Assembly: GCF_900130075.1 (NCBI RefSeq)
Contig: NZ_LT671418.1
Span: forward strand, 620,001-684,000
DNA length: 64,000 nucleotides
Direction of reading: 5' to 3'
Source: Herminiimonas arsenitoxidans
GTDB taxonomy: Bacteria; Pseudomonadota; Gammaproteobacteria; Burkholderiales; Burkholderiaceae_D
The position numbers and the translations under genes were made by a program. Of this stretch, positions 1 to 14,129 are shown piece after piece (position 1 is the stretch's first letter; every line of letters starts with the position of its first letter). Below the pieces are notes generated by a model. The model had not been told where the DNA came from, made no database searches, and saw only the letters and a list, made by a program, of their open reading frames with translations.

Positions 1-1
1 T

Positions 2-538
2 TTTATATCCGTTGACGTTGAAGCGTCCGGCCCTATACCTGGTGAGTACAGCCTTTTAAGCATAGGGGCCTGCAGTATTTTCGAAACGGAAAAAACATTC
101 AGATGTGAACTTCAACCAAGTTCGCCGAAGCATGACCCAGAAGCATTAGCGGTCACTGGATTGTCGCTCGCGCATTTAGAGAAAAATGGCCTGCCTGTGA
201 CCAAAGCTATGCAGCAGTTTGAACACTGGCTCGAAAGCTGTCGAAGTAAGCAAGACGAGAAACTGATTTTTGTTGGCTTCAATGCGGCTTTTGATTGGTC
301 GTTTATTAATTACTATTTTCACAAATATTTGGGTAGAAATCCTTTTGGATTTTCCGCCCTGGATATAAAAGCCTTATACATGGGAAGTACGCATGGCACC
401 TGGGCCGACACCAAATCCAGCAATATGGACGTAGCTTTGAAACCGAAGCTCAAAGGAACTCATGATCCGCTAGAAGACGCGTTGTACCAAGCTGAGTTGT
501 TTCGATTAATTCGCAAGAAAGAGGGAGAATCAAATTAG
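2..538 (+). CDS. DEDDh 3'-5' exonuclease (5'-truncated by window edge)
   Basis: The reading frame is open from base 2, so the true start lies upstream of the window. All three exonuclease motifs of the DnaQ/RNase T fold are visible: D-V-E near the start (ExoI), N-x3-F-D in NAAFDWSF (ExoII) and H-D-P-x2-D in HDPLEDALYQAEL (ExoIII, DEDDh type). Such enzymes remove nucleotides from 3' ends of DNA or RNA. It lies 73 bases upstream of the CD-NTase gene on the same strand, so it probably belongs to the CBASS operon, either as an accessory nuclease or in place of a usual effector. That role is inference. From memory, 3'-5' exonucleases occur as accessory genes in some CBASS operons. It is only distantly like the exonuclease at 5215-5691. 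Confidence 0.8.
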   Translation, partial: FISVDVEASGPIPGEYSLLSIGACSIFETEKTFRCELQPSSPKHDPEALAVTGLSLAHLEKNGLPVTKAMQQFEHWLESCRSKQDEKLIFVGFNAAFDWSFINYYFHKYLGRNPFGFSALDIKALYMGSTHGTWADTKSSNMDVALKPKLKGTHDPLEDALYQAELFRLIRKKEGESN

Positions 539-611
539 AGCAGATACGGATTCTCACTTAACCGGCATGACCGAATTTTTAATCAAACAACCTTGAATTA
601 GAAAGAAAAAA

Positions 612-1883
612 ATGGACACAACATTATTGAATAAGCCTCAAGTCGATAGTTGGGAAAGCCTATTGCTGCGTTCTGCGGCACAAATTTCATTGAGTGCCCC
701 ACAGTACGAAAAAATCAAAACTCGTTATGAAAATCTACAAAACATTCTTGATGCGACGACCGATCCATTGCTGCAAGGGGCGCATATTTTTATTCAAGGA
801 TCTATCGGACTTGGAACGACTCTCAAACCGGTTCCATATGCTGTAAATGAAATGGCTACGATTGATGCCGATGCGATCGTTCTTTTGCCGAATGCTGCAA
901 ATGCCTCTGCGGACCAAGTATTGGAGGCAATTGAGCAAAGATTTCGAGCTGGCAGTCGCGTAGGCCAACCGATTAAGCCGTTACGTCGTGGTGTACGGAT
1001 TGTCTATGGCGATGAAAATCCAGGCTTTCATATTGATATTACGCCTGCAAGAGTAGTAGCCGGCAATACTGATCAGAAAGGTCTTGGCAAACTTCAAGTA
1101 CCGGACAGAGAGACTGGTTGGAAGGCCAGCAGTCCACGTGAGTATTGCAACTGGCTTGGAGAGATAGCTGAGCTGAAAGTTATCACAGAAACACATTCGT
1201 TTGCTCTTGATTCTAGTTCTCGAGCAGACACAGCATTAGCTAAATCGACCCAGGATCCTGTACCGGACTACGGCGAGTATATGGATAGCAATCCCTTAAA
1301 GGCTGCAATCAAACTCTTGAAGCGGCATCGAGACGTATGGGCGATCGCCAATCGGAAAGAGAGCATTCGACCAATTTCGGCAATCATTACTACATTAGCC
1401 ACTCATGCCTACGAAGAAATTGCACGAGAGTCAGCTCACCGTCCATTACGTCCCATCGAAGCAATGATCGAAATCGTCCGTCGAATGCCTGACTTTATTG
1501 ATCCCATCCCAGCAGGGTATGCCGTATTTAATCCGAAGGACGACGGCGAAAATTTTGCGGAAAAATGGAATCGTCCCAACGGAGAAGGTAGTAAGTATCG
1601 AGACGCCTTTTATGTGTGGCATGCCAGAGCAGTCGTTGATATGAAATTAGGATTGGAGGATTTTGGCAAAGCCGAAACATTTGAGAATGCTATGAATGAA
1701 CAGTTTGGCGTATCTAAAGCATTCGTCAACGACGCTATCAAAAAACTCCCAGCTGATTGGACTCTGCCCGGACGTAAAGCAGGTGTAACTCTCAACAGTA
1801 TTAGTTATGCCATTTTTGCTGGCGCTGCCGCAGCCAGTAGTGCGTCACAAGCAGCCATCAAACCGGTAGATCGCCTTGGCTAA
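612..1883 (+). CDS. CBASS CD-NTase (cGAS/DncV-like nucleotidyltransferase)
   Basis: This 423-aa protein has the signature of CD-NTases, which make cyclic oligonucleotide alarm signals when phage infection is sensed. The G-S pair of the nucleotide-binding loop is at residues 63-64 (GSIGLGTT). The metal-binding D-x-D is at 85-87 (IDADAIVLL) and the third Asp is near residue 142 (FHIDITPA). All catalytic acids are therefore present. The following gene starts 8 bases before its stop codon, which indicates translational coupling. The C-terminus ends in a small Ala/Ser-rich segment; in Cap2-containing systems the CD-NTase C-terminus is what Cap2 attaches to a target. The product nucleotide cannot be told from sequence alone. 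Confidence 0.88.
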   Translation: MDTTLLNKPQVDSWESLLLRSAAQISLSAPQYEKIKTRYENLQNILDATTDPLLQGAHIFIQGSIGLGTTLKPVPYAVNEMATIDADAIVLLPNAANASADQVLEAIEQRFRAGSRVGQPIKPLRRGVRIVYGDENPGFHIDITPARVVAGNTDQKGLGKLQVPDRETGWKASSPREYCNWLGEIAELKVITETHSFALDSSSRADTALAKSTQDPVPDYGEYMDSNPLKAAIKLLKRHRDVWAIANRKESIRPISAIITTLATHAYEEIARESAHRPLRPIEAMIEIVRRMPDFIDPIPAGYAVFNPKDDGENFAEKWNRPNGEGSKYRDAFYVWHARAVVDMKLGLEDFGKAETFENAMNEQFGVSKAFVNDAIKKLPADWTLPGRKAGVTLNSISYAIFAGAAAASSASQAAIKPVDRLG

Positions 1884-3660
1884 TAATGGTGATGTAGTGT
1901 CGGAGGATGTTGAACGAGGAGTCGCAGCGCTTTGTAGGCACCTTGGCGAAGAGGGTAGTCGTTTATTGAGACGTTGTGAACCCAAGGGAGATGAGCTCGC
2001 CTCCTTTGATTTCCCTTTGCCGCCGGACTATTTGGGAGTCTCGCGCACGTTGCGGATCTCGTTCAACAATAATTTTCCGACGAGCGGACTAGTCTTTAAG
2101 ATCAGTCCATCTGCATGGCTGAAATGGCCACATGTCATGAAAGATTGGCTGTGTCTATATGGGGCAGGAAATGCCCCTGTAATCGGAACAGCCGAACAAG
2201 TAGTGGCAGACAAATTTGCTCGTTTGACTGCTTTGCTGCAATTAGTACTTCCTGCTGAGGCTAAAGGCAAACGTGACGCCGAATTCAATCGAGAGATATC
2301 GACTTATTGGGATCAGCAAATTGACCAAGCTTACCGAACCTGGCAGCAGCTTATTTTACTTGGCCTTCCAAGTAACGCAGGTCCTCTCTATACAGTATCT
2401 GATCAACGGAAGCGCATAGGGAATGTTGATGAACGTATCTGGGTGGGTGAAGATGCGAAAGAGCTGTTCAAGCATATTGCAAAAATCTCAGGTGCATCGG
2501 ATAGTGTCAAGGCCCCAGCGAAAGCGGCATTTTTCGCTCCATTACTGAGCATTCCTGGCGTTGAATTACCTAAAGCAGAAAATTTGATTGCATGGCTTGC
2601 GCCACATTTACAGGCGGCAGATGCTCGGTCTCTAACGAAATGGGAATCAGACTCAGAAAATTTTCCTGTGCGCTGGATTTTAGTCCGTTTACCGGATACC
2701 GAACCTGCTTTGGTCAAGGCATTTGTGCTACGCAGCACGGCTATGAAAAAGAATGGTCATTTTAATTATGGCCGTCGTGCTGGGCGTACATATGGGCGCT
2801 CAAAAACAAGATCGGGGCCTATCGTATTGCAGGCGGCGAATTTGCATCTAATCACCCCAACTACCTTACATTCACGAGATAAAAATACAGACCAAACTCA
2901 GCTAAAGCAAAAGCAAGTTGTTTTGATAGGTGCTGGTACATTGGGTGCTATGGTAGCAACCCAGTTGGCCCGCACGGGTATTACAAAAATGACGGTAATC
3001 GATCCCGATGAGTTAGAAGTCGCAAATATCGGCAGGCATGTATTGGGCGCAGATGACTTGGGACGATTTAAGGTGTATGCCCTGAAAGAAAGGATAGAGC
3101 GCGATTTACCGTTCGTAAATGTCCAAGCGATTTCTAACTATCTACACTTAGCATTGAAGGATAAACCTACCTTGCTTGATGAGGTAGATCTAGTAGTCAT
3201 CACAACGGCGGATTGGTGGTCTGAGCAATACCTGTGGCATCTTAAGGCTAATGCGAACTGGTCATTAGTGCATGGGTGGGCAGAGCCTCATGCCTTAGTA
3301 GGACATGTATTGACAGCGCAGACAGGGCAAACAGGCGATGGGCGTCAATTATTTGATGTAAACGGCCACTTTAAACATCGCTTCACCGATTGGCCGCATA
3401 ATGGTGTTGAGCCCTTGCCAGGTTGTGGTGCCAGCTTTATCCCGGGTGGGCCAATTTCGATTGCTGCCATAGCCACCATGATTTCTGACGCAGCAATTTC
3501 CACCCTGACGAGAAATCCGCCCCAACCATTTTGGTTCACCTATGTTTCCAATCCAGAAAGGGTCACAGAAGCAGGCGGAACTTACTTGGCGGAGCCATTA
3601 CCCCCGAACTGCGGGAATCTTGTCATCAAAAGACCGTGGCCAGAAGAGGTCGCGCAATGA
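1876..3660 (+). CDS. cap2: CBASS Cap2, E2-E1 ubiquitin-transfer-like fusion
   Basis: A 594-aa fusion of an N-terminal E2-like domain and a C-terminal E1/ThiF domain. The likely E2 catalytic cysteine is C93 in KDWLCLYG, after a W-P-H motif. The E1 Rossmann loop GAGTLG is near residues 350-356, followed by D-P-D-E-L-E-V-A-N-I-G-R, typical of ThiF/MoeB. The likely E1 cysteine is near residue 517 in PLPGCGAS. Known Cap2 proteins conjugate the CD-NTase to a target and raise its activity. The start is a TTG overlapping the CD-NTase gene by 8 bases, and the 3' end overlaps cap3 by ATGA. The arrangement matches type II CBASS. Confidence 0.9.
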   Translation: MANNGDVVSEDVERGVAALCRHLGEEGSRLLRRCEPKGDELASFDFPLPPDYLGVSRTLRISFNNNFPTSGLVFKISPSAWLKWPHVMKDWLCLYGAGNAPVIGTAEQVVADKFARLTALLQLVLPAEAKGKRDAEFNREISTYWDQQIDQAYRTWQQLILLGLPSNAGPLYTVSDQRKRIGNVDERIWVGEDAKELFKHIAKISGASDSVKAPAKAAFFAPLLSIPGVELPKAENLIAWLAPHLQAADARSLTKWESDSENFPVRWILVRLPDTEPALVKAFVLRSTAMKKNGHFNYGRRAGRTYGRSKTRSGPIVLQAANLHLITPTTLHSRDKNTDQTQLKQKQVVLIGAGTLGAMVATQLARTGITKMTVIDPDELEVANIGRHVLGADDLGRFKVYALKERIERDLPFVNVQAISNYLHLALKDKPTLLDEVDLVVITTADWWSEQYLWHLKANANWSLVHGWAEPHALVGHVLTAQTGQTGDGRQLFDVNGHFKHRFTDWPHNGVEPLPGCGASFIPGGPISIAAIATMISDAAISTLTRNPPQPFWFTYVSNPERVTEAGGTYLAEPLPPNCGNLVIKRPWPEEVAQ

Positions 3661-4166
3661 CGGCTCTACATCGCTGGATGTGGCATTGGTCTGATTTAGA
3701 CGTTACGTTATATGTTCATACCTCGGTTGCTTCTTTCTTTGAAAACCATCGACAAGAGCAGGGTGGACATGAGCGAGGGGGCCAACTTTTCGTTGACGTA
3801 ACGCGTCCAAATGGACTCTGGCTAGTTGAAGCTACTGGCCCACATCTCAACGACAAGTCTGGTCCAACATGGTTGGAAATGGATTTGAAACGTTGCCGGG
3901 AAGAGATCGAAGAAGCAAATGCAAGAGGTTTGCGTTTAATTGGTTATTGGCACTCCCATCCCGAACATGTACCGGCATTATCTGGCCAAGATATTAAAAG
4001 CTTAACGAAATTCAGCCAACGAAACACTCATCAACTGCCTAACCCATTGGCAGTTATAGTAGGGCGCAGTCTTTCACCGGAAGGCATACGCGCTTGGATT
4101 TATCAGAAGCGCAAAGCTCTTCTTGCTGAACATATTGAACAAAATGATGGACAGAATAAGTTTTGA
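3657..4166 (+). CDS. cap3: CBASS Cap3, JAB/JAMM isopeptidase
   Basis: A 169-aa zinc metallopeptidase of the JAB/MPN family. The JAMM motif is complete: H99-x-H101 in GYWHSHPEH, S109 and D112, with the upstream catalytic Glu probably E39 in ERGGQLF. Cap3 proteins remove the CD-NTase from its conjugation target and so oppose Cap2. The ATG overlaps the cap2 stop (ATGA); a longer frame exists upstream, but the overlap start fits both operon structure and domain length. It is the last gene of the run, followed by a 56-base gap with a clear ribosome binding site for the next gene. Confidence 0.9.
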   Translation: MTALHRWMWHWSDLDVTLYVHTSVASFFENHRQEQGGHERGGQLFVDVTRPNGLWLVEATGPHLNDKSGPTWLEMDLKRCREEIEEANARGLRLIGYWHSHPEHVPALSGQDIKSLTKFSQRNTHQLPNPLAVIVGRSLSPEGIRAWIYQKRKALLAEHIEQNDGQNKF

Positions 4167-4222
4167 AATTCGAGACGTCGTATACGTATGGGATATTCAC
4201 ACATAATTTCTAAAGGAGATAT

Positions 4223-4552
4223 ATGGGTATAGGCCAAAAAGTGCGGTCGCTACATTGCGGATTCCAACAAGGCCTCGGATTCGAGGTAATTGCTGAAGAA
4301 AATGTCATCTTGCTCAAGAATGTGCCATTTGAGCTAGAAGATATAGTTACAAAATGGATCGCTGCATTACCAACAGAACTAATGAGTGGTCCTGACGCAT
4401 TGGTAAAGCTCTACCCAACTGAAGGATTGGCACTAACTGAGTCCGGGTGGAGTGCGTTTGTAAGTTGGATGACCGAAACGTTAAACAGCGCACAGCACGA
4501 ACCAAATTTTCCGCTAAAAGCACGACAATCAGCTAAAAACTCTGCTCAGTAA
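4223..4552 (+). CDS. Hypothetical protein, 109 aa (copy 1 of an inverted pair)
   Basis: I do not recognise the family. The protein is soluble, without signal peptide or membrane segment, and rich in aliphatic and acidic residues. A good ribosome binding site (AAAGGAG) lies 7-8 bases before the ATG. A near-identical copy is at 5869-6198 on the opposite strand. The first 35 residues are almost unchanged, as is a central block around ALTESGWSAFVSWMTETLN, while the last 20 residues diverge. The conserved reading frame with scattered substitutions argues that both copies code for protein. It directly follows the CBASS genes and may be co-transcribed with them; no function can be assigned. Confidence 0.65.
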   Translation: MGIGQKVRSLHCGFQQGLGFEVIAEENVILLKNVPFELEDIVTKWIAALPTELMSGPDALVKLYPTEGLALTESGWSAFVSWMTETLNSAQHEPNFPLKARQSAKNSAQ

Positions 4553-4569
4553 ATCTATAGGTGAGAATT

Positions 4570-4791
4570 ATGGCTGCGACGTTGAAATTATCGGATGAAC
4601 TAATTTATCTTGCTGCCCCATACGCTGTTGCGGCGCATAGGTCAGTTTCGCAGCAGATTGAATATTGGGCTCGCCTGGGAAAGGCCGCTGAGGACAATCC
4701 TGAGTTACCGATTGAATTTATAAAAAACACATTACTTGCCGTTGCCGAATCGGACGCCAAACTACACACCGATTACTCGATACGTAACTAG
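4570..4791 (+). CDS. ParD-like antitoxin family protein
   Basis: A 73-aa protein resembling the ParD-like family. The N-terminus LKLSDELIYLAAPYA followed by HRSVSQQIEYWARLGKAAE is the usual ribbon-helix-helix-like pattern of that group. The ATG at 4570 is preferred over the GTG at 4561 because the family starts directly with the beta-strand. No toxin gene is next to it: what follows are repeats and then the exonuclease gene. It may be a solitary regulator or a toxin-less remnant. A decayed relative with an in-frame stop lies at 9987-10124, so this family has been copied within the island. Confidence 0.6.
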   Translation: MAATLKLSDELIYLAAPYAVAAHRSVSQQIEYWARLGKAAEDNPELPIEFIKNTLLAVAESDAKLHTDYSIRN

Positions 4792-4845
4792 GGGCAATGT
4801 TCGCTCTCGAAATCCCTAGATTAACGGCTCACTTCGAGTGGAGCC

Positions 4846-5156
4846 GAATCGGAAGTAAAGTTGTTAAAACTATGCGAACGGGTAGACTTTACATCTTTAG
4901 TTCCCAAAAATTTACAACTTTAGTTCCGCAGCCTGAAATTCTGCCGGTGGTTCCTGGTCTTGCCGTGCTCTCTGCTTAATCTATAAATTCGCATAATTTA
5001 TATTATGTTAAACCGAGACCTAAGTTGAATTTGTCCATAGAACTGTCCCTCGTCCGTTGAAGTAAAAGTGAACGATTACAGGAAGTAAAAGTGTGATTTT
5101 AAAAAAGAGCACGCGAACTAATCGGAAGTAAATGAGTATTCGCATTAAAGTAACCA
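4846..5156 (+). repeat. Array of transposon-end-like repeats (left-type orientation)
   Basis: This gene-free stretch holds repeated short motifs. GAAGTAAAAGTG occurs exactly at 5059-5070 and 5082-5093, with variants GAAGTAAATGAG at 5125-5136 and TAAAGTAACCA at 5146-5156, giving a spacing of about 22 bases. GGAAGTAAAG at 4851-4860 is a further copy. Two opposed copies ending CTTTAGTTCC lie at about 4890-4930. The motif GAAGTAAAAGT is found in reverse at 59351-59361, beside the Tn7-like tns genes. TnsB sites in Tn7 are about 22 bp long, so this looks like the left end of a Tn7-like element. The exact terminus and target duplication were not resolved. Confidence 0.5.
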
Positions 5157-5214
5157 CTTAGCCGCATTTGAAAATAGCCATCCATTTGCAAAGCACTGAA
5201 GGAGCAAGGGGCTT

Positions 5215-5691
5215 ATGTCCTTTAAAATTTTTATTGATACCGAATTTACTGATTTTATCGATATTCACCTCATAAGCATCGGTATGGTCGCGCAGTCGGG
5301 TGAAGAATTCTATGCCGAGGTGCCGTACCCTGATGGTAGCTGTAACGCGTTCGTGCGCGAAACAGTAATTCCATTACTTGGACGCGTCCAAGATGCGTCC
5401 TGTGCGGTTGAGGATCTGTGCGTCAAAATGACAACTTGGCTCAGAATTGTCAGGCCCCTCGAAGAAGACGTTGAAATTTGCTTTGACTATCAGTCAGACT
5501 GGGATCTATTTTCCAGCGCATTGGACTATCGCGTGCCGCCATGGTGTCAAGCACGTATGATTAACCGCAGCATCAACGAATTGCTGCGCTATAAATTTCA
5601 TAAGGATAATAATCTGCCTGAACATCACGCGCTATACGATGCACAGGCGAATCGATATGCTTTTCGAGAGCGTCCGTCCGTTTCAGCTTGA
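5215..5691 (+). CDS. 3'-5' exoribonuclease, Rv2179c-like DEDDh family
   Basis: A complete 158-aa exonuclease with D8-T-E10 (IDTEFTDF), a middle F-D-Y-Q-S-D-W-D-L-F block, and the DEDDh-type HHALYDAQANR near the C-terminus. This matches the Rv2179c-like exoribonuclease family, whose members trim RNA 3' ends. A decayed relative lies at 27184-27625. The gene has an AAGGAG site upstream and stands alone between two opposed repeat arrays (5059-5156 and 5704-5780). That arrangement suggests it was moved as a single-gene cargo. Whether it protects against phage or is only a passenger cannot be seen. Confidence 0.8.
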   Translation: MSFKIFIDTEFTDFIDIHLISIGMVAQSGEEFYAEVPYPDGSCNAFVRETVIPLLGRVQDASCAVEDLCVKMTTWLRIVRPLEEDVEICFDYQSDWDLFSSALDYRVPPWCQARMINRSINELLRYKFHKDNNLPEHHALYDAQANRYAFRERPSVSA

Positions 5692-5703
5692 ATAGTCTGT
5701 CGT

Positions 5704-5780
5704 GGTTACTTTGAAATTCGAATGACCGGCTACTTTCGTGCGCGGATGCCTGGTTACCTTAATGCGAATACTCAGTAAAT
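5704..5780 (-). repeat. Array of transposon-end-like repeats (right-type orientation)
   Basis: GGTTACTTT (5704-5712), GGCTACTTT (5728-5736) and GGTTACCTT (5752-5760) are spaced by 24 bases. The segment 5751-5780 is an imperfect inverted copy of 5127-5156: both share GAGTATTCGCATTAA and TAACCA when read in one direction. Together with the left array it brackets the exonuclease gene in about 0.7 kb. The rest of 5692-5868 shows no gene. Confidence 0.5.
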
Positions 5781-5868
5781 GTGTAAAGTCGCCAGTTCGC
5801 ATACTTGTATCAACTTTTTCCTCCCCCGCTTCCCTGCGTCCACATCGTTCCGCAACAGAGCCATAAAC

Positions 5869-6198
5869 TTACCCAATAGAATTTATAACTGATTGTTGTA
5901 CTTGTTGAGCAAAATCTGGTTCGTACTGTGCGTTGTTCAACGTTTCAGTCATCCAACTTACAAACGCACTCCACCCAGATTCAGTCAGTGCTAATCCTTC
6001 GTTTGGATATAACTTAACCAAGGCTGCTGGGCCGTCCATCAGATCAAGAGGCAATACGGCAATCCATTTCGCGATCACGTTTTCCAGCTCAAATGGCACA
6101 CTTTTGAGCAAGATGACGTTTTCTTCAGCAATGACCTCGAATCCCAGGCCTTGTTGAAATCCACAATGTAGTGACCGTACTTTTTGGCCTATTCCCAT
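5869..6198 (-). CDS. Hypothetical protein, 109 aa (copy 2 of an inverted pair)
   Basis: This is the second copy of the unknown 109-aa protein at 4223-4552, in opposite orientation. Differences are mostly conservative in the middle (for example ELEDIV against ELENVI), with a divergent C-terminal tail. The Shine-Dalgarno region is weaker (CAGGTGAT) than in copy 1. The two copies face each other around the ParD-like and exonuclease genes. They could have arisen by inverted duplication, or have served as the sequence into which the repeat-bounded unit came. Confidence 0.62.
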   Translation of the reverse strand: MGIGQKVRSLHCGFQQGLGFEVIAEENVILLKSVPFELENVIAKWIAVLPLDLMDGPAALVKLYPNEGLALTESGWSAFVSWMTETLNNAQYEPDFAQQVQQSVINSIG

Positions 6199-6453
6199 AT
6201 ATCACCTGCAGAAATTTATTTGCAAAAGTGCCCTACTAAATATTTGCATCAATGTTGCCACATCCGTACGCAGATCATTGTTGGTGATCTTGCAAGGCGG
6301 ATTACATACGGACTGTTGGGCATCTCCGATTGGAATAAGACGGCTTCGTTATAATTTCCCTTAGGAAATATATGTAATACATTGATTAATTGCAGTATTC
6401 ACAGTTGCTTAACCGGATTTTAGATACTAGAATTAGTTTCAATTCAGCATTGC

Positions 6454-6615
6454 GCACTAAATGTAGTGCTTGAAGAGAGGGAGTTTGTCCGGAGATAATA
6501 TTTATCTCCGGACGTAGAGACAGCTAAACGCCATACTCTAAGGTGGGGACCCAGAGTTTCGTTTATTGCTGCGGATGCGTCAATACTGGACATAAAGCCA
6601 GTGTTGTTTCGCATC
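6454..6615 (+). ncRNA. Candidate structured leader RNA with four hairpins
   Basis: The 470-base gap 6199-6668 has no convincing gene but four consecutive inverted repeats. 6454-6469 is GCACTA/TAGTGC with a 4-base loop. 6487-6513 is a perfect 12-bp stem (GTCCGGAGATAA) with a 3-base loop. 6535-6557 has stem ACTCT/AGAGT around GGT/ACC. 6574-6615 is a near-continuous 15-bp stem made of GATGCG/CGCATC and CAATACTGG/CCAGTGTTG with one G-U pair. A TATAAT is present at 6350-6355, without a well-placed -35 box. None of the stems ends in a U-run, so they are not simple terminators. The element lies 54 bases before the 81-aa gene and could be a free RNA or a regulatory leader. Confidence 0.5.
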
Positions 6616-6668
6616 TAAGGCTTGCTGTTTCGCTCCATTATTAAACGCCATCTATAGAGGAGTTCAAA

Positions 6669-6914
6669 ATGGCAAATAGCAATCGCAGTGGTAGTAAAAC
6701 GACCAGTCTGGCAGCAAGAACCCTGGCAAGTAGTAGTGCTTCAGGTGTTCAAAAAAGTTTGGCGGCCAGCGTCTTGTCTCAAGCGAGTACAAATCGCGTT
6801 ACTGGCAAAGCAATGGAAGGAGTCGCTTCCTCTGCTCTTCGTAACCCGAACTCGAGTCCCGTGACCCAGAAGCTTGCTGGTTCTGTGGTTTCTCAGTCTA
6901 GTAAGAAGCGTTAA
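6669..6914 (+). CDS. Small Ala/Ser-rich basic protein, 81 aa
   Basis: The protein is built of Ala, Ser, Lys and Arg with an internal repeat-like pattern: SLAARTLASSSASGVQKSLAASVLSQ early, then ALRNPNSSPVTQKLAGSVVSQSS near the end. Both halves share the motif S/T-x-x-x-Q-K-S/L-L-A-x-S-V-x-S-Q. It has an AGAGGAG ribosome binding site. It contains no Cys or Trp, no signal peptide and no membrane segment. I have an impression of similar short proteins in other accessory regions but know of no function. It follows a structured leader and is followed by a strong terminator, so it is probably transcribed separately and abundantly. Confidence 0.62.
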   Translation: MANSNRSGSKTTSLAARTLASSSASGVQKSLAASVLSQASTNRVTGKAMEGVASSALRNPNSSPVTQKLAGSVVSQSSKKR

Positions 6915-6917
6915 GCA

Positions 6918-6954
6918 GTAGCGGTACGTCAGCATCTTGCTGACGTACCGCTAC
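6918..6954 (+). terminator. Rho-independent terminator after the 81-aa gene
   Basis: A perfect 17-bp stem (GTAGCGGTACGTCAGCA and its complement) with a 3-base loop, followed by a T-rich tract at 6955-6970. It starts 4 bases after the stop codon. It separates the 81-aa gene from the downstream 53-aa and membrane-protein genes, which would then depend on read-through or another promoter. Confidence 0.85.
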
Positions 6955-6981
6955 ATTTCTTTTTTCTTTTGCGGAGCAATC

Positions 6982-7143
6982 ATGAAATCGATCAAGCTTA
7001 TTTCAAATCCCACCACGCGTAATTTGCCAGGTTCCGTTGGAATTATTAAGAACGGGGTTACGGGGCAGCAAATGCAACCGATCACACGCGGGCAATCTGG
7101 CCAAGGAAGCAGCAATCCCAAGCCTGAAAATGGCTCCAAATAA
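6982..7143 (+). CDS. Small peptide, 53 aa, with G-x-T-G-x2-M-Q motif
   Basis: The ATG at 6982 follows a GCGGAG site and is preferred over an upstream frame that runs through the terminator. The peptide is basic and Gly/Pro/Gln-rich, and carries NGVTGQQMQPITRG at its centre. The same motif appears twice in the cytoplasmic tail of the membrane protein encoded 8 bases downstream (GTTGLSMQKVVPR and GITGMPVQAVTP). This suggests a shared origin or a common binding partner. No known family is recognised. Confidence 0.5.
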   Translation: MKSIKLISNPTTRNLPGSVGIIKNGVTGQQMQPITRGQSGQGSSNPKPENGSK

Positions 7144-7151
7144 AAGCCCAG

Positions 7152-7829
7152 ATGACAGATGAAGAAAATTTGGCTAGAGAACTTGAGGAGCGAAAGCGAC
7201 TATATGAACGTCATCGCGAAGAGCTCTCGAAGCGCCAAATTTCGAATGCCGAGAACTTAGACAAGTCGATCTTGACCTATTCTGCGGCTGGGCTGGCTCT
7301 ATCTTTGGGGTTTTTAAAAGACTTTATCCCGATTTCACAAGCTAAGTACGCTTGGACACTATACGGTTCTTGGGCATGTTTTACATTTGCAATTCTCATA
7401 GTAATTGCGTCGTATGTTGTAAGTCTGAAAGTCTTAAGGCTGCAGCTTGATAGAGCGGAACGCTACTATCTGGGACGCGAGGAATCCGCATGTAACGAAT
7501 CCCTTTGGTGGGATAAATGTGCTGACTTACTTAATCATTGGTTGTCTGCAGTCGCGTTTGGAGTTGCTCTTGTACTGACAATTTTTTTTGTATCAATAAA
7601 CTTAAGAGGTGCAAACATGGCTGAGAATAAAGTGACTAGAAGTATCGCTCAAGATGGCACAACAGGTTTAAGTATGCAGAAGGTGGTGCCCAGAACACAA
7701 ATCGTTGAAAGAGGCATTACTGGCATGCCAGTCCAAGCCGTCACCCCTCCGTCACCAGCAAATAATCAGAGCTCATCTCAGCAAGGTCAACGCGGTACAA
7801 GCACTTCTTCCGGCGGTGGGGGAAAATAA
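7152..7829 (+). CDS. Three-helix membrane protein with repeated GxTG motif tail
   Basis: A 225-aa protein. Residues 1-38 are charged and probably coiled coil. Hydrophobic segments lie at about 40-55, 68-92 and 130-149. The tail from 155 on is polar, Ser/Gly/Gln-rich and ends in a run of glycines. The tail carries two copies of a G-x-T-G-x2-M/V-Q motif also present in the 53-aa peptide just upstream (8-base gap), so the two are almost certainly one operon. Small membrane proteins of this shape are common as toxic effectors in defence units, but that is only analogy. The neighbouring integrase is on the opposite strand and ends 9 bases away. Confidence 0.65.
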   Translation: MTDEENLARELEERKRLYERHREELSKRQISNAENLDKSILTYSAAGLALSLGFLKDFIPISQAKYAWTLYGSWACFTFAILIVIASYVVSLKVLRLQLDRAERYYLGREESACNESLWWDKCADLLNHWLSAVAFGVALVLTIFFVSINLRGANMAENKVTRSIAQDGTTGLSMQKVVPRTQIVERGITGMPVQAVTPPSPANNQSSSQQGQRGTSTSSGGGGK

Positions 7830-7837
7830 TTTTGGAG

Positions 7838-8770
7838 CTATTCGCGACGCTCTAGCTGCTGTTGAATAAAGGGATTGTCAGCATCGATATAGCGTAATGC
7901 TGATTGCATATTCTTCCATCCAACATAGGTCATTAACGTTTTAATGTCCCAGCCATTGGCCATTGCCCAGGTTGCTAGCCCTCTTCTTAATGAGTGGCTA
8001 CTATAGAGTTCGCTTGAAACAACGCCGCAATCATGCAGGATCGAACGTAGCAGAGGCGCAATGCTGTCTATATGTATGCCCTTCTCACTAACATGCCCCC
8101 ACCGATCGATCGCTCGAAACGTGGGACCTTCAGTTAGTTGTGCTGCATTTTGCCAATTCAAATAAGCCTCTACAGGACATAGTTTCGATAATGCTGGCAC
8201 CTTAAAGGAGGTGCCTTTATATTGCCGATCACCTTTTGTGCGTGAGAGATAGCAAATCATGCCTTCTCCTGGAGAAGCAGTGATATTTTCTATTGTGAGT
8301 CTGGTCAATTCGTCGCTACGAAAGCCGCGCCAGAAGCCGAGCAATAAGAGGGCTTTGTTTCGTTTGAGCCGCAACGCTTGAGGTCGATTGTTAGTGCCCT
8401 CAGCGTCGTTGATTGCCTTATCCAGAGAGATGGCGACTTGTTCTAATTGTCCCAGCAACAGCGGTTTCGCCTGTTTTTCCTGGGTTGGATGAGAGGCCAA
8501 TATGCCGCGAAATACGCCGCGCACGACTGGTGCCTTGGTTGGATCTGGAAATCCTTGATCCGTATGCCATCGCGCTAGCGCTGCCAAACGCTGCCGCAAC
8601 GTGTTCGCCGATAAGGATTCGGCATAATCGGCGAGGTAGCGCGCAACACTATTGGCCGTCGCTGGCAAAAAACCACCCCACTCCACCTCGAAATGTTGAA
8701 CAGCTGCTTGATAGCTTTTCCGCGTGTTCTCACGCGTCGCAGCATGTAAGTATTGATCGACTTTATCCAT
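7838..8770 (-). CDS. Tyrosine recombinase / site-specific integrase
   Basis: A 310-aa recombinase of normal length. Residues 1-110 form the SAM-like DNA-binding core region (RENTRKSYQAAV onwards). In the catalytic domain the first Arg is in FWRGFRSDEL, the Lys in RTKGDRQ, the H-x-x-R in SHSLRRG and the nucleophile Tyr in ALRYID. The His/Trp position is GW in VGWKNM. All catalytic residues are present. It is transcribed away from the KfrA-like gene. Integrase plus KfrA-type DNA-binding protein is a familiar pair on integrative islands, so this may be the integrase of an older element. Confidence 0.85.
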   Translation of the reverse strand: MDKVDQYLHAATRENTRKSYQAAVQHFEVEWGGFLPATANSVARYLADYAESLSANTLRQRLAALARWHTDQGFPDPTKAPVVRGVFRGILASHPTQEKQAKPLLLGQLEQVAISLDKAINDAEGTNNRPQALRLKRNKALLLLGFWRGFRSDELTRLTIENITASPGEGMICYLSRTKGDRQYKGTSFKVPALSKLCPVEAYLNWQNAAQLTEGPTFRAIDRWGHVSEKGIHIDSIAPLLRSILHDCGVVSSELYSSHSLRRGLATWAMANGWDIKTLMTYVGWKNMQSALRYIDADNPFIQQQLERRE

Positions 8771-8843
8771 ATTCGTTGAGTGGTTAGCGAAAACGTTATT
8801 ACAGTTCGCATCATCAATTTAGGTCATGATTATCGCCATCACA

Positions 8844-8866
8844 CAGGATAATCATACATTATCCTG
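8844..8866. promoter_or_regulatory. Inverted repeat in the integrase/kfrA divergent region
   Basis: CAGGATAAT and ATTATCCTG form a perfect 9-bp inverted repeat with a 5-base spacer, between the divergent integrase and KfrA-like genes. A second palindrome of 14 bp (TATGTAATTACATA) lies at 8911-8924, just before the KfrA-like start. KfrA proteins bind operators and repress their own gene, so these are plausible binding sites. Confidence 0.5.
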
Positions 8867-8962
8867 TTTTATATTAATGGAAAATAAATATGACATGAAA
8901 TAATATATAGTATGTAATTACATATTACGTAATGCATTATCTTATTTATGGATGGAGTGATC

Positions 8963-9964
8963 ATGGCCCGCTCTGGGTTGTTAAAGTCGGATGTAAAAAA
9001 AGCTAGGGATTCGTTGCTCGCGCAGCAGATCAACCCGTCAGTGGATGCTGTGCGGGTCGCTCTGGGGAATACGGGGTCTAAGACAACTATTCATAAATAT
9101 CTCAAAGAGTTAGATGACGATACGACTAACCCCTCACCCACTATCAGTGAGTCGTTATTAGATTTGGTGGAGCGTCTGGCCGCGCAATTGCAGGCGGAAA
9201 CAGATTCTCAAGTAGACGAAATCCGTTCGCGGTTTAATGAGAAGGATCTCGAGCATGTCGCGGCAATTTCCGAGCAGCAGAATGCGATCGCGGCATTGAG
9301 CAGTCAGGTCCTGCAACTTGAATCTGATCTATCTCGTGAAAGAAACTCTGCAGCCGCAGTACAGGAACTCCTGCAGCAAGAGATGCTGGCCAGACATGCA
9401 GCGGATCAGCAAGTTGTTCACCTAAAGGAGCGCTTGGCGGAAAATGAATCTCATCGCCAATCCATCGAAGAGAAACATCTGCATGCGCGTGAGGCACTAG
9501 AACATTACCGACAATCAGTGAAAGAACAACGCGACCAGGATCAACGTCGGCATGAGCAACAGATTCAGCAGGTGCAGGCAGAGATGCGCCAACTGCAACA
9601 AAGCCTGGTAATTAAACAGGATGAGGTAACACGCTTGAATCAGGAAGGCGTTAGGCTAATAACCGATTTGTCACATGCTCAAAAATCGGTTTATGAACAG
9701 CAGACTTATGGACGACAGCTAGAACAAAAACTGGAAGCATTGCCGGTGATCCAGCAGCAGCACTATGTTCTTGTGATTAAACTAGAGGAGAAAGATATGC
9801 AGCTCAAGGAGCTTACGACTCAGATATCCGATGCAATAAACCGAGCTGCGGAATTGAGCAAGGATATTCATCGACTGGAATTAGAGTTAGCTAGCGCTAA
9901 CGCGACCATTGCGGTTCAAGAAGCGACTAATGAACACTTTCGTGCGCATTTAGAACGGCAATGA
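8963..9964 (+). CDS. KfrA-type DNA-binding coiled-coil protein
   Basis: The N-terminal domain (MARSGLLKSDVKKARDSLL to TTIHKYLKEL) matches the plasmid KfrA_N family, a helix-turn-helix DNA-binding domain. From about residue 65 to the end the protein is a long coiled coil rich in Gln, Glu, Arg and Ala. The ATG at 8963 is preferred: it has GGAG six bases upstream and matches the family start, while the ATG at 8948 adds five residues. KfrA proteins are autorepressors with a nucleoid- or partition-associated role on plasmids. On islands they usually sit by the integrase, as here. Confidence 0.82.
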   Translation: MARSGLLKSDVKKARDSLLAQQINPSVDAVRVALGNTGSKTTIHKYLKELDDDTTNPSPTISESLLDLVERLAAQLQAETDSQVDEIRSRFNEKDLEHVAAISEQQNAIAALSSQVLQLESDLSRERNSAAAVQELLQQEMLARHAADQQVVHLKERLAENESHRQSIEEKHLHAREALEHYRQSVKEQRDQDQRRHEQQIQQVQAEMRQLQQSLVIKQDEVTRLNQEGVRLITDLSHAQKSVYEQQTYGRQLEQKLEALPVIQQQHYVLVIKLEEKDMQLKELTTQISDAINRAAELSKDIHRLELELASANATIAVQEATNEHFRAHLERQ

Positions 9965-9986
9965 ACATCAAAACCAGGGAGTTTGC

Positions 9987-10124
9987 ATGGCAATCGCATT
10001 GAAATTATTCGATGAACTCATTGATCTCGCCAAACCATAGGCCGTGGTTGAAAATCGTCCAGCTCCAAAACAGATCGAATATTGGGCTGGCCTCAGAAAA
10101 GCGGAGGGCGATAGGTTTGACTAA
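9987..10124 (+). pseudogene. Decayed ParD-like gene
   Basis: Translation from ATG 9987 gives LKLFDELIDLAKP, then an in-frame TAG at 10038, then continues as QIEYWAGLRKAEG to a stop at 10122. Both parts match the intact ParD-like protein at 4570-4791. The internal stop replaces one codon. The 3' end overlaps the SMR gene on the other strand. Confidence 0.7.
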
Positions 10125-10530
10125 CGATGTGCGCCTCTAGCTGAACGCAGGCATCTGATTTCGACCCAAACCGTACATTCCACACGCTTCTGGAAATATC
10201 AATGAGCCGGCTCTTTGACATCAGGTTAATAACGAGCACGCCTGAAATAATCAGCCCAATTCCTATCAATGCGGGCATATCGAGGGCCTGTTTGTGAAAC
10301 ACCCATCCGGCTATAGAGATGAGAACGATGCCCGCACCAGCCCATATGGCATATGAAATGTTGGTTGGCAAAGTCTTCAAGGCTACAGATAAAAAGTAGA
10401 ACGAGACTGCATATCCAATCACCACAATTACGCTGGGAAGCAGCTTGCTGAATCCGTTCGATGACTTCAGTGTTGTAGTTGCAACTACTTCTGCCGGGAT
10501 GGTCACAGTCAAAGGAATATAAGGTGACAT
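10093..10530 (-). CDS. SMR family multidrug efflux protein (EmrE/QacE-like)
   Basis: A four-helix small multidrug resistance protein. The conserved Glu of helix 1 is in the IPAEVVATTTLK segment, and SYAIWAGAGIVLI in helix 3 matches EmrE. Such proteins export quaternary ammonium compounds and cationic dyes in exchange for protons. The usual family length is about 110 aa, but this one runs to 145 with a C-terminal tail beginning SVWNVRFGSKSDAC. That tail looks like read-through into unrelated sequence after loss of the original stop. The gene follows the TetR gene by 1 base, so the two form an operon. Confidence 0.82.
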   Translation of the reverse strand: MSPYIPLTVTIPAEVVATTTLKSSNGFSKLLPSVIVVIGYAVSFYFLSVALKTLPTNISYAIWAGAGIVLISIAGWVFHKQALDMPALIGIGLIISGVLVINLMSKSRLIDISRSVWNVRFGSKSDACVQLEAHIVSQTYRPPLF

Positions 10531-10531
10531 C

Positions 10532-11077
10532 TTAGTTTCTTTCGATTAAATCCAACATGAGTTTATAGGCTGCGTTTGCGGCTTTTCGCTCTATTGGTGG
10601 TCCGATAACGTGGCTGTACCACAGCCCATCTGAGAACATCCTGCAGGCTAAATGTATATCTTTATTGATTGAGTCCGCCTCGCTCATTGCGCTGGTGTAA
10701 TCCGCCCATTCCGCTAAGTACTTCTCTTCGCTAATAGCGAGCAAGGTAATGGCACGGCCAATTATCTGCACTCGCTCGCCCCCTTGCATGGCCAATCGCA
10801 TGTAAGTACGGATGTGTTGTGCAGGCCCAGCTGGCTCCTCTTTAAGCACTTCCTCGTAGTCGACCGCGAATGCCTCAAAAACCCGTTCAAACAAGCCATC
10901 TATTAGCTGCGCCTTGGTTCGGAAGTGATGCTGCAGACCTCCTTTCGAAATTCCAAGCCTTTGGAGAACGCGCTCTTGCGTCAATAAGGCAAAGCCGTCG
11001 GCAAGCAGCACCTCTTGAGTTGCATCGAGAATACGTTCACGTAGCAAATCAGGTTGTCGAGTTCGTGTAGATGTCAT
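10532..11077 (-). CDS. TetR family transcriptional repressor
   Basis: A 181-aa regulator with an N-terminal helix-turn-helix (RERILDATQEVL, then RLGISKGGLQHHFRTKAQLIDGLF) typical of TetR proteins, and a helical ligand-binding C-terminal domain. It is encoded directly upstream of the SMR pump and probably represses both genes until a substrate binds. An inverted repeat just before its start codon is the likely operator. Confidence 0.88.
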   Translation of the reverse strand: MTSTRTRQPDLLRERILDATQEVLLADGFALLTQERVLQRLGISKGGLQHHFRTKAQLIDGLFERVFEAFAVDYEEVLKEEPAGPAQHIRTYMRLAMQGGERVQIIGRAITLLAISEEKYLAEWADYTSAMSEADSINKDIHLACRMFSDGLWYSHVIGPPIERKAANAAYKLMLDLIERN

Positions 11078-11081
11078 GTTA

Positions 11082-11101
11082 CAATCCGTCTGGATGGATT
11101 G
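11082..11101. promoter_or_regulatory. Probable TetR operator
   Basis: CAATCC...GGATTG, a 20-bp imperfect palindrome (8 of 10 positions paired), lies 4 bases upstream of the TetR start codon. A further half site CCAATCCATTCGG follows at about 11119. Position and symmetry fit autorepression of the TetR-SMR operon. Confidence 0.6.
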
Positions 11102-11222
11102 TTATTGTACATCGAACCAATCCATTCGGTAAGTATTAGCCGCCCTATCAGTAAAAAATCCTGCGTTCAGGGCGACATAGCAAGGAAGTAAGACTTTACC
11201 CCCCTTTTTTTAGAGGTACGAG

Positions 11223-11387
11223 ATGCATGAAGCAAACAAACTGCTCCTGTTACTGACATGCGTAACAGTTCCACTAGTTTTATTGAGTCACCTGATAGCA
11301 ATTTGGTACTTGGGCGTTATGCAACGACAACGCTCTCAAATCTCAGCGAAAGTGGATACAAAAGCCGATTTGTTCGATGCAATTTAA
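11223..11387 (+). CDS. Small single-pass membrane protein, 54 aa
   Basis: An ORF with an AGAGGTACGAG site before the ATG. The product has one hydrophobic helix at about residues 7-31 (LLLLLTCVTVPLVLLSHL) and a polar basic tail. The family is not recognised. It lies between the TetR operator and an oxidoreductase pseudogene, with no clear partner, so coding status is uncertain. Confidence 0.4.
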   Translation: MHEANKLLLLLTCVTVPLVLLSHLIAIWYLGVMQRQRSQISAKVDTKADLFDAI

Positions 11388-11451
11388 GTCCGACGTAGTT
11401 TGAGAAACTAAGTCTGTAGAGACATTAATAGCGAAATGAAGCGAGGAAAAC

Positions 11452-11921
11452 ATGATTTTGATTACCGGAGCGAATGGCCAATTAGGAAGATTGGTCATTG
11501 AGAAGTTACTGCAAGACATTCCTGCGAAGATGATAGTTGCAGCCGTTCGCCATCCAGAGAAAGCCCATGACCTTAGATTATGCAGAAACGGCCGCAGTTG
11601 TGTTGACCTTAAAATCCGTTAAGCCAATCTACGAACTGTCCGGGGATAATAGCTTCACACTGAAAGATGTGGCTTCTGAATTGTCCAATCAGTCCGGCAA
11701 AAAGGTCGACTACCTTGACCTGCCCGAACAAGAGTATCAATCACTATTGCTTAACTATGGCCTTCCCGAAGGTGTCGCCGCTACCATTGGCAATGGCAGA
11801 CACTGGCGCTGCCAACGGTGATGTATATAGCGAGTCTAGGGATTTGGCAGAGCTAATAGGAAGAAGTACTACGCCACTATCAAAAGTTGTTTCTGAAGCT
11901 CTTGACGCTGCGCGAAGCTGA
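11452..11921 (+). pseudogene. Remnant of NAD(P)H:quinone oxidoreductase (QorB/NmrA-like)
   Basis: The start is intact (ILITGANGQLGRLVIEKLL, the NAD(P)-binding loop) but leads to a stop within 60 residues. Downstream in another frame comes the C-terminal half (SFTLKDVASELSNQSGKKVDYLDL). The last part (RDLAELIGRSTTPLSKVV) is in a third frame. The middle of the roughly 285-aa protein is missing, so the gene has an internal deletion and frameshifts. Confidence 0.75.
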
Positions 11922-12070
11922 TTACTCCTTCATGGTTCAGCAGCCGGACATTTTCAATGAAATAGAGATGTCCGCTTTTGGCCGATAGCAGCCGTCTGCG
12001 TCCGCCCCTAAGCGAACATTCCTTGTGGTGCCATGTGCACTAACGGTCTAGAATTTCAGATGTGATTAGG

Positions 12071-12602
12071 CTAACCCTCCCCGCCTCTCCAAGTCCCAGC
12101 TTTATCTACCCCTGAGACAAAAGTGGAAAAATCGCGGGATGGCTTGCCCAAAACAGTTGCTACATCACGCGATATTTTGTCCAGCTTTCCCTTGGAGATA
12201 TCTTCGTAAGCGGAACTTAGCATATATGCCCAATCAGCCAACACGCCTTGCGCAATCTGCTCAGTGACATACGTCTCCGGAGAGAGAGAAATATATTTGA
12301 GTTCGCAGCCTGCGCCGCGGTTTATTTCATCGGCAATTTCGTCAAAGTTCATTAAGCGTGGACCGGTAAGTTCATAGTTTTTTTCCAACAAGCCGGTCGT
12401 CCGTCAAGACAGCGACGGCAACATCGGCGATATCGTCTGCATCCACAAATGCTTCCTTACCACTGCCCGCTGGTATTCGCAGCTCACCTGAAAGTACTGC
12501 GGGTAGAAGGAAATCTTCACTGAAATTTTGAAAGAGCCAACGCAGCCTTAGACTGACAAGGTTCAAACCTGCATTGACGATGTGCTGTTCGGCTGCACGC
12601 AT
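12071..12602 (-). pseudogene. Frameshifted NmrA-like oxidoreductase remnant
   Basis: Two overlapping frames together give the C-terminal two thirds of an SDR/NmrA-type protein. The first (12372-12602) carries LRLRWLFQNFSEDFL and EAFVDADDIADVAVAVL; the second (12071-12391) carries YELTGPRLMNFDEIADEI and ends DFSTFV. They must be joined by a frameshift at about 12375-12390. The N-terminal nucleotide-binding part is absent. It is convergent with the similar remnant at 11452-11921. Confidence 0.7.
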
Positions 12603-12728
12603 GGATTGAGAGAATTCACTTCAACGTCGACGATCACAAATATCAATAACAGCAAAAAGCGATGCTGATAAATAACGCCGTCAGCAATACATAATATAAA
12701 TTATCGTTGGAACTTCCAAATATCATTG

Positions 12729-14129
12729 TTAATCATTTGGAAAAGTTAGAGTAAAACAAGTCAGTTCGTTTATCTTACTTGTTGCATCAGCCTTTCCGCT
12801 GTGCAGCAGCATAATCGATTGCACTATCGCCAAGCCTAAACCAGTAGACGATGCAGAGTTTGAGCGCGCAGTATCAGCTCGGTAAAAACGATCAAATAGC
12901 CTAGGTATGTGTTCTTCATCAATTCCAACTCCTGGATTGGTAACGCTCACAATTGACCCAGAAAGTATTGGCTCAGCACGCAAGCTGATCGTGCCTCCAA
13001 TAGGTGTGTAACGTATCGCATTTGCCATAAGGTTACTTATAGCCCGTCGCAATAGAACCGCATCTGCATAAATACTCCCGCTTCCACTGACCGTAATTAG
13101 CACACCCGCCTCCTCTGCTACACCTTCAAAATAATCAGCGATCCGTTGCAATTGCTCTACTGAATTAATTTCTTTTTTGTTGACAGTAACCTGAGTATGC
13201 TCTGCACGAGCAAGAAAAAGCATACTCTCGACCATATGGGCCAGCCGCTCATACTCTTCAATATTCGAAATCATTAAACTTTGGTAGTCATCCGTAGTTC
13301 GCGCTTTCGTCAACGCGACTTGCGTTTGAACCATCAGATTATTTAAAGGAGTACGCAAATCATGAGCTAAATCTGCAGAAAACTGATTTAATCTTTGAAA
13401 GCTACTGCTCAGTCTGTCCAGCATGGCATTAAATGCCTGTACTAACTCATGCAGTTCCTGTGGCGCTGAATCTATGTCCAGGTGTGTATCCAATCGATGA
13501 ACAGTGATGGAGCGAGCTTTACTGGCGATGGTCCGTATCGGACGCAATCCTTGATGCACCAACAGATATCCTAGAAGCGCTGCTAAGAGCGTGCCGCTTA
13601 TAGCTGCCCCCCATACCTCGACTCGATATGCATCCAATAATTCCATGCGATCGGAGGTCGTGCGCGCGACAATAATTTTCAATTGTTCACCGCTACGCAA
13701 TTTTGCTTTAGCTGAAATCGCACGTGCAGTTAGACCTGTAGAGGTCAGTATCGATTTGATAGATGCTCTGGTTGCGGACTCATTAATCGGAAGTGCATAG
13801 ATTTGAGGTAACGTACCTTGGTCAGTATTTGTATGTAAAACAATGCTGCCTTGACTATCCTTTAACAATACAATCAACTTGTCATGATTGGCAGATGCGT
13901 CCAAGAAAAAGTGTGGATCTTGTTGGATAGAAGCGACCGATTCTGTTTCTTCTGCAATGTGCTGCATTAACCCTATCTTTCCGATTAATTCTTGATCGTC
14001 ACGCGATTCCAGTTCGCTAGATAGCGCGCGGTATAAATAGGTACCAACACCCGTGAAGATAAAAATCGACACAAGACAAAATAAAATACCAAATCGTGTT
14101 GTTAAAGACATTCTTCGCAAGAACTTCAT
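12729..14129 (-). CDS. Heavy-metal sensor histidine kinase (CusS/CopS-like)
   Basis: A 466-aa sensor kinase with an N-terminal membrane helix (about 12-32), a periplasmic domain, a second helix (about 175-195), a HAMP segment, the H-box HDLRTPLNN, the N-box [11 protein letters not shown] and the G-box TGLGLAI. The length and layout fit heavy-metal sensor kinases. It overlaps the response regulator gene upstream by ATGA. It would sense periplasmic metal and phosphorylate the regulator. It is a paralogue of the CopS at 42394-43770, so the window holds two such systems. Confidence 0.9.

Follow-up and report, generated by a model that had tools for sequence, protein, structure and literature searches.

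A putative NrdR operator and a folded leader upstream of a mobile small-protein gene in a proteobacterial defence island

Introduction

The locus described here raises the question of whether a run of hairpins, two small reading frames and a membrane-protein gene, packed between a type II CBASS and an integrase in the 3.78-Mb genome of Herminiimonas arsenitoxidans (G000), serve one function or several, and what that function might be. Our window, the whole stretch of DNA analysed, comprises 64,000 nucleotides (G000:C1:620001-684000). The original prediction read the hairpins as a stable RNA and combined it with an 81-aa protein, a 53-aa peptide and a three-helix membrane protein into a single defence or stress unit, the membrane protein being its effector. 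NrdR is a repressor of ribonucleotide reductase genes, and the dNTP pool is a target of phages and of several defence systems; both bear on the reading that we propose for one half of the locus.

Results

Two modules separated by a terminator-like stem

Each predicted element was located where it had originally been placed. The plus strand carries a structured stretch, the 81-aa open reading frame (ORF), a 17-bp terminator-like stem, the 53-aa ORF and the 225-aa ORF with its three helices, followed on the 3' side by a tyrosine integrase gene and a KfrA_N gene. The features, in window coordinates, are:

612-1883, 1876-3660, 3531-4166, upstream neighbour of the locus: type II CBASS (cyclase, E1-E2 and JAB, all three defining parts present)
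6405-6433, plus strand: possible sigma-70 promoter TTGCTT-N17-TAGAAT (found by eye; -35 matching at 3/6 positions; absent from the promoter-scan list)
6424-6469, plus strand: putative tandem NrdR-box operator (box 1, 6424-6439; box 2, 6454-6469)
6470-6668, plus strand: structured 5' leader of about 200 nt, with hairpins at 6487-6513 (12-bp stem, 3-nt loop), 6535-6557 (an arm within a longer stem) and 6573-6616 (7 + 9 bp)
6669-6914, plus strand: 81-aa basic protein, a tandem duplication of a helical hairpin, from an unnamed family
6918-6954, plus strand: 17-bp terminator-like hairpin between the modules, partly diverged in G001
6982-7143, plus strand: 53-aa peptide with the motif GVTGQQMQPI; a similar small ORF lies upstream of the membrane gene elsewhere
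7152-7829, plus strand: membrane protein of 225 aa with three helices and a tail that is disordered; 94 homologues, the G001 protein being mma_1737
7617-7829, plus strand: tail of the 225-aa protein, similar to the 53-aa peptide, with an in-frame ATG after AGAGGTG

Our co-occurrence analysis did not bear out a single unit. Outside G000 and G001, its nearest relative in the genome set used, the 81-aa gene accompanied the 225-aa family at 0/23 loci (one a duplicate), and the membrane protein accompanied the 81-aa family in 0/105 locus records (duplicates included); among these loci the two protein families occur independently of each other, and no support was found for the membrane protein as effector of the RNA and the 81-aa protein. 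The locus consists of two modules, A (6424-6914) and B (6982-7829), which are probably two transcription units because the terminator-like stem separates the 81-aa gene from the 53-aa and 225-aa genes. The proposed defence setting held in part, as both families were found in defence or mobile-element neighbourhoods, but not in every case. The whole stretch gave no plasmid match. Inspection of the ORFs at window positions 1-14000 by eye turned up no reverse transcriptase, the enzyme that would mark a retron. Two ORFs for Rv2179c-like 3'-5' exoribonucleases flank the CBASS, one (161-538) above the Pfam cut-off and the other (5215-5691) slightly below it. The window also holds a 354-nt inverted repeat (4205-4558 and 5863-6216, arms 80% alike), each arm of which codes for the same unknown 109-aa protein, and more copies occur in G001.

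Module B is a separate conserved pair that recurs without module A. In 7/20 distinct loci (L082, L083, L085-L088 and L093) the membrane gene is immediately preceded by a peptide of 51-67 aa whose motif is similar, and in three (L089, L095 and L100) a small tail-like ORF was seen by eye downstream of the membrane gene. The AlphaFold2 (AF2) model of the 225-aa protein, of low confidence (mean pLDDT 59), places helices at residues 2-57, 67-106 and 119-165 and scores below 50 in the tail, which aligns with the 53-aa peptide at 33% identity (GITGMPVQ versus GVTGQQMQ). It is possible that the ATG at 7617 is an internal start with its own ribosome-binding site and that the tail is also made alone, like the intragenic antitoxins of PMC10327210. 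The pair neighbours a caspase-helicase protein in L082, and in L088 (8297-10622) a ThsB-like TIR gene, a caspase-like gene, a small peptide and a three-helix membrane protein stand in a row, an arrangement that we take to resemble the TIR-caspase type of Thoeris. The peptide-membrane pair may thus serve caspase-type defence.

A tandem operator matching that of nrdA

All four predicted hairpins are present, but the first, GCACTAAATGTAGTGC at 6454-6469, is NrdR box 2 and so makes up half of an operator with two boxes in tandem in the DNA. Palindromes of the form ACTA-N4-TAGT fit the consensus of NrdR boxes. The exact pattern ACTA-N4-TAGT-N18-ACTA-N4-TAGT lies at 6426-6467, and no match with two or fewer mismatches arose in 100 shuffles of the window. 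G000 contains the exact pattern at two places, this site and one upstream of nrdA (3163932-3163973), and the window boxes, 30 bp apart from start to start with a 14-bp spacer, have spacing identical to that at nrdA in the genus. At this single spacing, 14 exact sites were found in 13 genus genomes; in 11 of these 13, one exact site precedes an ORF that encodes the NrdA ATP-cone motif RRNG[AS]VV, and the remaining three sites are that of the window, its G001 counterpart and a further one in G009, while G007 and G003 yielded none. BLAST across the genus added two short matches to 6426-6468, one preceding an nrdA-like gene (L138) and one preceding a metallo-hydrolase gene and a helix-turn-helix gene (L137; genes named by eye). 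NrdA of G000 scores above its NCBIfam cut-off, and nrdR is present in the genome (TIGR00244, 194 bits against a cut-off of 124.65).

PMC12051234 describes most NrdR sites as pairs of boxes separated by 15-16 bp and reports in vitro binding at spacings of 14-17 bp. The 14-bp spacer of the window thus stands at the short end of the published range, although it equals that of nrdA in the genus, and the two palindromic boxes are in helical phase. From this sequence arrangement, NrdR would be expected to bind and repress at the window operator. The -10 element of the possible promoter at 6405-6433 overlaps box 1; the promoter scan listed TTGAAG-N18-GATAAT at 6470-6499 instead.

The further site in G009 (L153 1501-1542; G009:C1:3163467-3163508) is a second NrdR-like operator in the genus away from nrd genes. 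It faces an MBL-fold gene that matches the PADLOC models RTasMBL, LmuA and Avs1a and is divergent from an XRE-like gene, after which comes a relative of the window's 5215-5691 exonuclease (by eye).

Tandem boxes across the 81-aa family

Pairs of 16-bp boxes 29-33 bp apart were scored. A score of at least 39 was obtained before the best NrdA/NrdE match in 12/19 genomes holding an 81-aa gene, 16/19 of these matches being above the family cut-off. Among 71 loci, 65 were kept at 45 bits and three with short upstream regions were left out, giving 62. Tandem scores of at least 36 occurred in 11/62 regions upstream of the 81-aa gene, compared with 2/289 regions upstream of other genes (at least 100 aa, starting more than 700 nt away in the same loci) and 0/65 downstream regions, counts that ignore kinship. 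Against shuffles of each 81-aa upstream region, 14/62 reached p<0.01 and 20/62 p<0.05. Merging similar upstream regions, in a set that also contains the later sample described below and in which L206, L227 and L229 were used with their misplaced starts, left 15/61 upstream against 0/61 downstream at a score of at least 35, and 19/61 against 1/61 at 33 or more; the other 42 groups have no detectable box pair at the latter score.

The later sample was drawn after the hypothesis had been formed, from the genus to which G604 belongs (probably Pseudomonas), and consisted of the best 30 among the 44 matches there. Scores of at least 33 were present in 16/30 upstream regions (6/14 sequence groups) and in 0/30 downstream and 0/30 far-upstream regions, every control staying at or below 31. 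A search of 369 class genomes, six with a match, produced no new strong loci and stands outside these counts. LexA boxes (CTGT-N8-ACAG), considered as a general alternative, were confined to 5/62 loci (L019, L020, L022, L128 and L021), four of which form one group; in the G604-genus sample, LexA-like boxes appeared in 2/31 loci, at the far edge (L216 and L217). Replication stress may be the theme common to the NrdR, LexA-like and XRE-ImmA/IrrE-like settings of the gene. Part of the 81-aa family, then, carries an NrdR-type operator, whereas most loci do not.

The leader in the window and in relatives

The window leader folds more stably than its shuffled counterparts, reaching z = -6.5 at 6440-6625, where 0/200 shuffles equalled it, and z = -6.1 across 6350-6668 (0/100). 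Comparison with G001 revealed eight substitutions, one unpaired and seven at paired sites, of which five keep the pair (two of them constituting one double change) and two break it; leader identity, at about 95%, is similar to that of the rest of the stretch. A helix covering the Shine-Dalgarno sequence is formed in one fold of the window leader and absent from another. G000 has no second copy of the RNA, the sole other match of 6340-7835 being the terminator's own arm, and BLAST with the RNA against 300 genomes of the order, a set whose listing did not include G001, returned only itself and a 21-nt match in G312 (E 9e-4). Rfam gave nothing at gathering score in the window, and its five weak matches had E 0.14 or worse.

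The relatives carry a conserved structure. At most of the 16 box-bearing G604-genus loci the second box ends about 200-250 nt before the start codon, with a folded leader between. Two covariance models were built, R1 on 12 leaders, of which 10 are close kin, and R2 on 14. R1 has 9/24 pairs changed on both sides and 91.7% of cells paired, with 0/500 shuffles as good, and its structure scores far above slid structures. It recovered seven leaders outside its training set in the correct place and on the correct strand (L203-L207, L214 and L227; E 4e-5 to 0.024), missed L210, L223, L042, L035 and L038, and matched L117 only on the opposite strand; opposite-strand matches cover the near-palindromic first hairpin only. 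R2 found eight non-members, of which L213, L221, L224 and L199 are close kin of members and L206, L227, L035 and L117 complete the set. Taken together, the leader is present in 20/30 G604-genus loci and 9/14 groups, including all 16 with boxes, a figure composed of 18/28 found by R2, most being model members, and of L211 and L215, found by R1 and excluded from the R2 search.

Every R2 match with E <0.03 lies in the leader of an 81-aa gene and none stands alone in 990 kb, where lone RNAs could not appear because the loci were fetched by protein. The last helix covers the Shine-Dalgarno sequence in 10/12 leaders, one with a mismatch. The conserved RNA core of the relatives lies upstream of this helix and can be separated from it, and their leader extends into the ribosome-binding site. 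Rfam 15 had no match at the leader in 17 relative loci (L042, L117, L035 and 14 others). A strong leader fold is not a family-wide trait, only 9/62 loci falling below z -3 (30 shuffles each).

The window leader has the position and strand of the relatives' covarying leader, beneath a similar operator, and GGTGGG and GTCAA are common to both by eye. R1 reached a best E of 0.24 against window 6300-6700, with filters off and on the opposite strand, and R2 had no match in the window leader; because the covariance models fail to match, the window RNA is not placed in the R1/R2 family, and homology is not claimed. The predicted structured RNA thus has covarying counterparts beside 81-aa homologues in relatives. 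Compensatory change may be present in the window RNA, for which the single relative G001 shows a double change at one pair and breaks two others.

Separately, loci with the leader or its relatives contain C4 RNA (L035, L042 and L208), tRNA (L035, L038 and L210) and SRP RNA (L203 and L206), which suggests that P4-like satellites, together with integration sites at tRNA or SRP RNA, carry the 81-aa unit.

The 81-aa protein and its settings

The window protein is a full-length profile match to a family of at least 2414 protein clusters (E<=0.001 among 7994 candidates scored). Its two halves align with one another (HHalign 97.6%, E 4e-12), the AF2 model has four helices (mean pLDDT 77), and pI exceeds 9 in 70/70 family members. 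The protein has no Pfam or NCBIfam match, and its AF2 model no PDB fold match at E <= 0.001 (best 3.1). Other members have weak, scattered matches that we take as chance or leads, including an alcohol dehydrogenase model in 12/70 (best E 4e-4) and Pfam Con-6 in 4/70 (best E 0.002, too weak for membership); one UniRef name in the family starts with 'SMP domain'. The literature searched describes no function for the family.

The family ranges over Proteobacteria, and its plasmid-borne members extend to Bacteroidota, cyanobacteria and Deinococcus; prophages and defence islands are further settings. Of 5426 complete E. coli genomes, 154 hold a relative of the L022 gene, and at both E. coli loci opened it adjoins an integrase at tRNA-Asn. 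TIR, SAVED-CBASS, PD-(D/E)XK or ImmA/IrrE genes lie near the 81-aa gene in 6/12 plasmid regions opened; others have, for example, respiration genes adjacent or resistance genes about 2 kb off. XRE-ImmA/IrrE-like genes (named by eye, with one annotation) are among the four nearest genes on either side at 10/65 loci, directly upstream on the same strand at seven and 18-30 nt away at five, these five forming one sequence group. At L113 and L025/L040, a basic peptide of 45-49 aa with LIFR and GLKA motifs lies between an XRE-type gene and the 81-aa gene (by eye). A CD-NTase beside the 81-aa gene in L004 was set aside, its reading frame appearing broken by eye. Stops and shifts interrupt the 81-aa gene of G001, where the operator, leader, 53-aa and 225-aa genes are intact; with the rest kept, the 81-aa protein may not be needed, or the leader may function by itself.

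Discussion

We favour, with moderate confidence, the reading that module A, carried on a mobile defence island, is a unit whose expression responds to dNTP levels. Host NrdR, loaded with ATP and dATP, would hold the module A promoter off through the tandem boxes, which may have been copied from the nrdA operator or have converged with it. A fall in dATP, whether through replication stress, phage takeover or a dNTP-depleting defence, would cause NrdR to leave the DNA and so allow transcription of the leader of about 200 nt and the 81-aa gene. The leader would be a folded cis-acting RNA that probably sets translation of the small protein, because the closing helix pairs with the Shine-Dalgarno sequence in relatives; the window leader may work as theirs would. 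While the shortage lasts, the 81-aa protein would most likely bind nucleic acid, or else the leader itself. What the sequences show directly is the operator, its agreement with that of nrdA, its enrichment in the family and the covariation of the relatives' leader; repression, sensing and the later steps are our proposal. A bolder version, which we consider doubtful, is that mobile elements throughout the Proteobacteria carry a dNTP alarm with two gates. Host NrdR would guard the promoter, and a new kind of leader RNA that senses nucleotides would guard translation; each would respond when phages or dNTP-destroying defences deplete the pool, and a small nucleic-acid-binding protein would be released to protect replication or silence it. 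The window leader would then be a divergent form of that RNA.

The leader could be a structured 5' UTR without regulatory role beneath NrdR-controlled boxes, as the single relative, the lone double change, the two broken pairs and an identity to G001 no different from that of the surrounding stretch would lead one to expect; the fold (z -6.5) and the covarying leader in the same position in relatives argue against this, and we hold it to be somewhat unlikely. Alternatively, the leader could be an independent small RNA and the real product under NrdR control, with the 81-aa protein as chaperone or accessory. G001, which retains the leader beside a broken 81-aa gene, the length and strong folding of the leader and the separable RNA core of the relatives all fit such a role, which we nevertheless judge unlikely, as the relatives' leader continues into the ribosome-binding site and the R2 matches (E <0.03) all belong to 81-aa leaders, albeit among protein-fetched loci in which lone RNAs could not show.

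Other explanations concern the proteins. That the 81-aa protein is an antitoxin or inhibitor of a neighbouring defence effector is suggested by the XRE-ImmA/IrrE-like neighbours and by the TIR, SAVED-CBASS, PD-(D/E)XK or ImmA/IrrE genes in half of the plasmid regions opened; yet no single partner recurs widely, other loci have no adjacent effector by annotation, and a dedicated antitoxin would be expected to retain its toxin, so that this reading appears distinctly unlikely. The cooperation of RNA, 81-aa protein, 53-aa peptide and membrane effector in one defence cassette, the original prediction, would account for the synteny of all parts in G001 and for their place between CBASS and integrase, but among the loci fetched the two families co-occur only in G000 and G001 and the terminator-like stem separates the parts, which renders it very improbable. 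A dNTP-responsive module A beside an independent module B remains our preferred account. If it is true, a mobile small-protein family, part of it under an NrdR operator, ties defence islands to the dNTP pool and offers a testable link between nucleotide sensing and immunity, together with a handle on an unnamed family of more than 2400 protein clusters and a covarying leader RNA without an Rfam 15 match in the 17 loci tested.

Several known systems invite comparison. The 81-aa family presumably shares small size and a repeat-like build with the Con-6 and SMP-like short repeat proteins of conidiation and seed maturation, although the window protein itself has no match to them. Like riboswitches and Shine-Dalgarno-sequestering leaders, the leader of the relatives has covarying hairpins between promoter and start codon and a Shine-Dalgarno helix; of the riboswitch hallmarks, a conserved aptamer and an expression platform that responds to a ligand, the relatives display a conserved structure. 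Neither their leader, at the 17 loci, nor that of the window reaches an Rfam gathering score. With the NrdR regulon, which covers reductase operons and, in P. aeruginosa, topA, the window shares tandem palindromic boxes with the spacing and orientation of nrdA in the genus, but what it would control is a gene of a mobile island rather than a reductase or topA. PMC4409342 reports no further NrdR-box promoters in P. aeruginosa PAO1 besides the RNR genes and topA. Our open-access literature search, by title, returned no report of an NrdR-linked mobile small-protein, phage-defence or leader-RNA gene. Sensors of DNA damage or stress also control the transcription of defence operons, CapW/BrxR being one such regulator and CapK/CapS (PMC13373217) another. 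Module A would resemble them in that a defence-island gene would be tied to replication stress. Whereas CapK/CapS and CapW/BrxR are dedicated, island-borne regulators, module A would instead use the housekeeping NrdR of its host.
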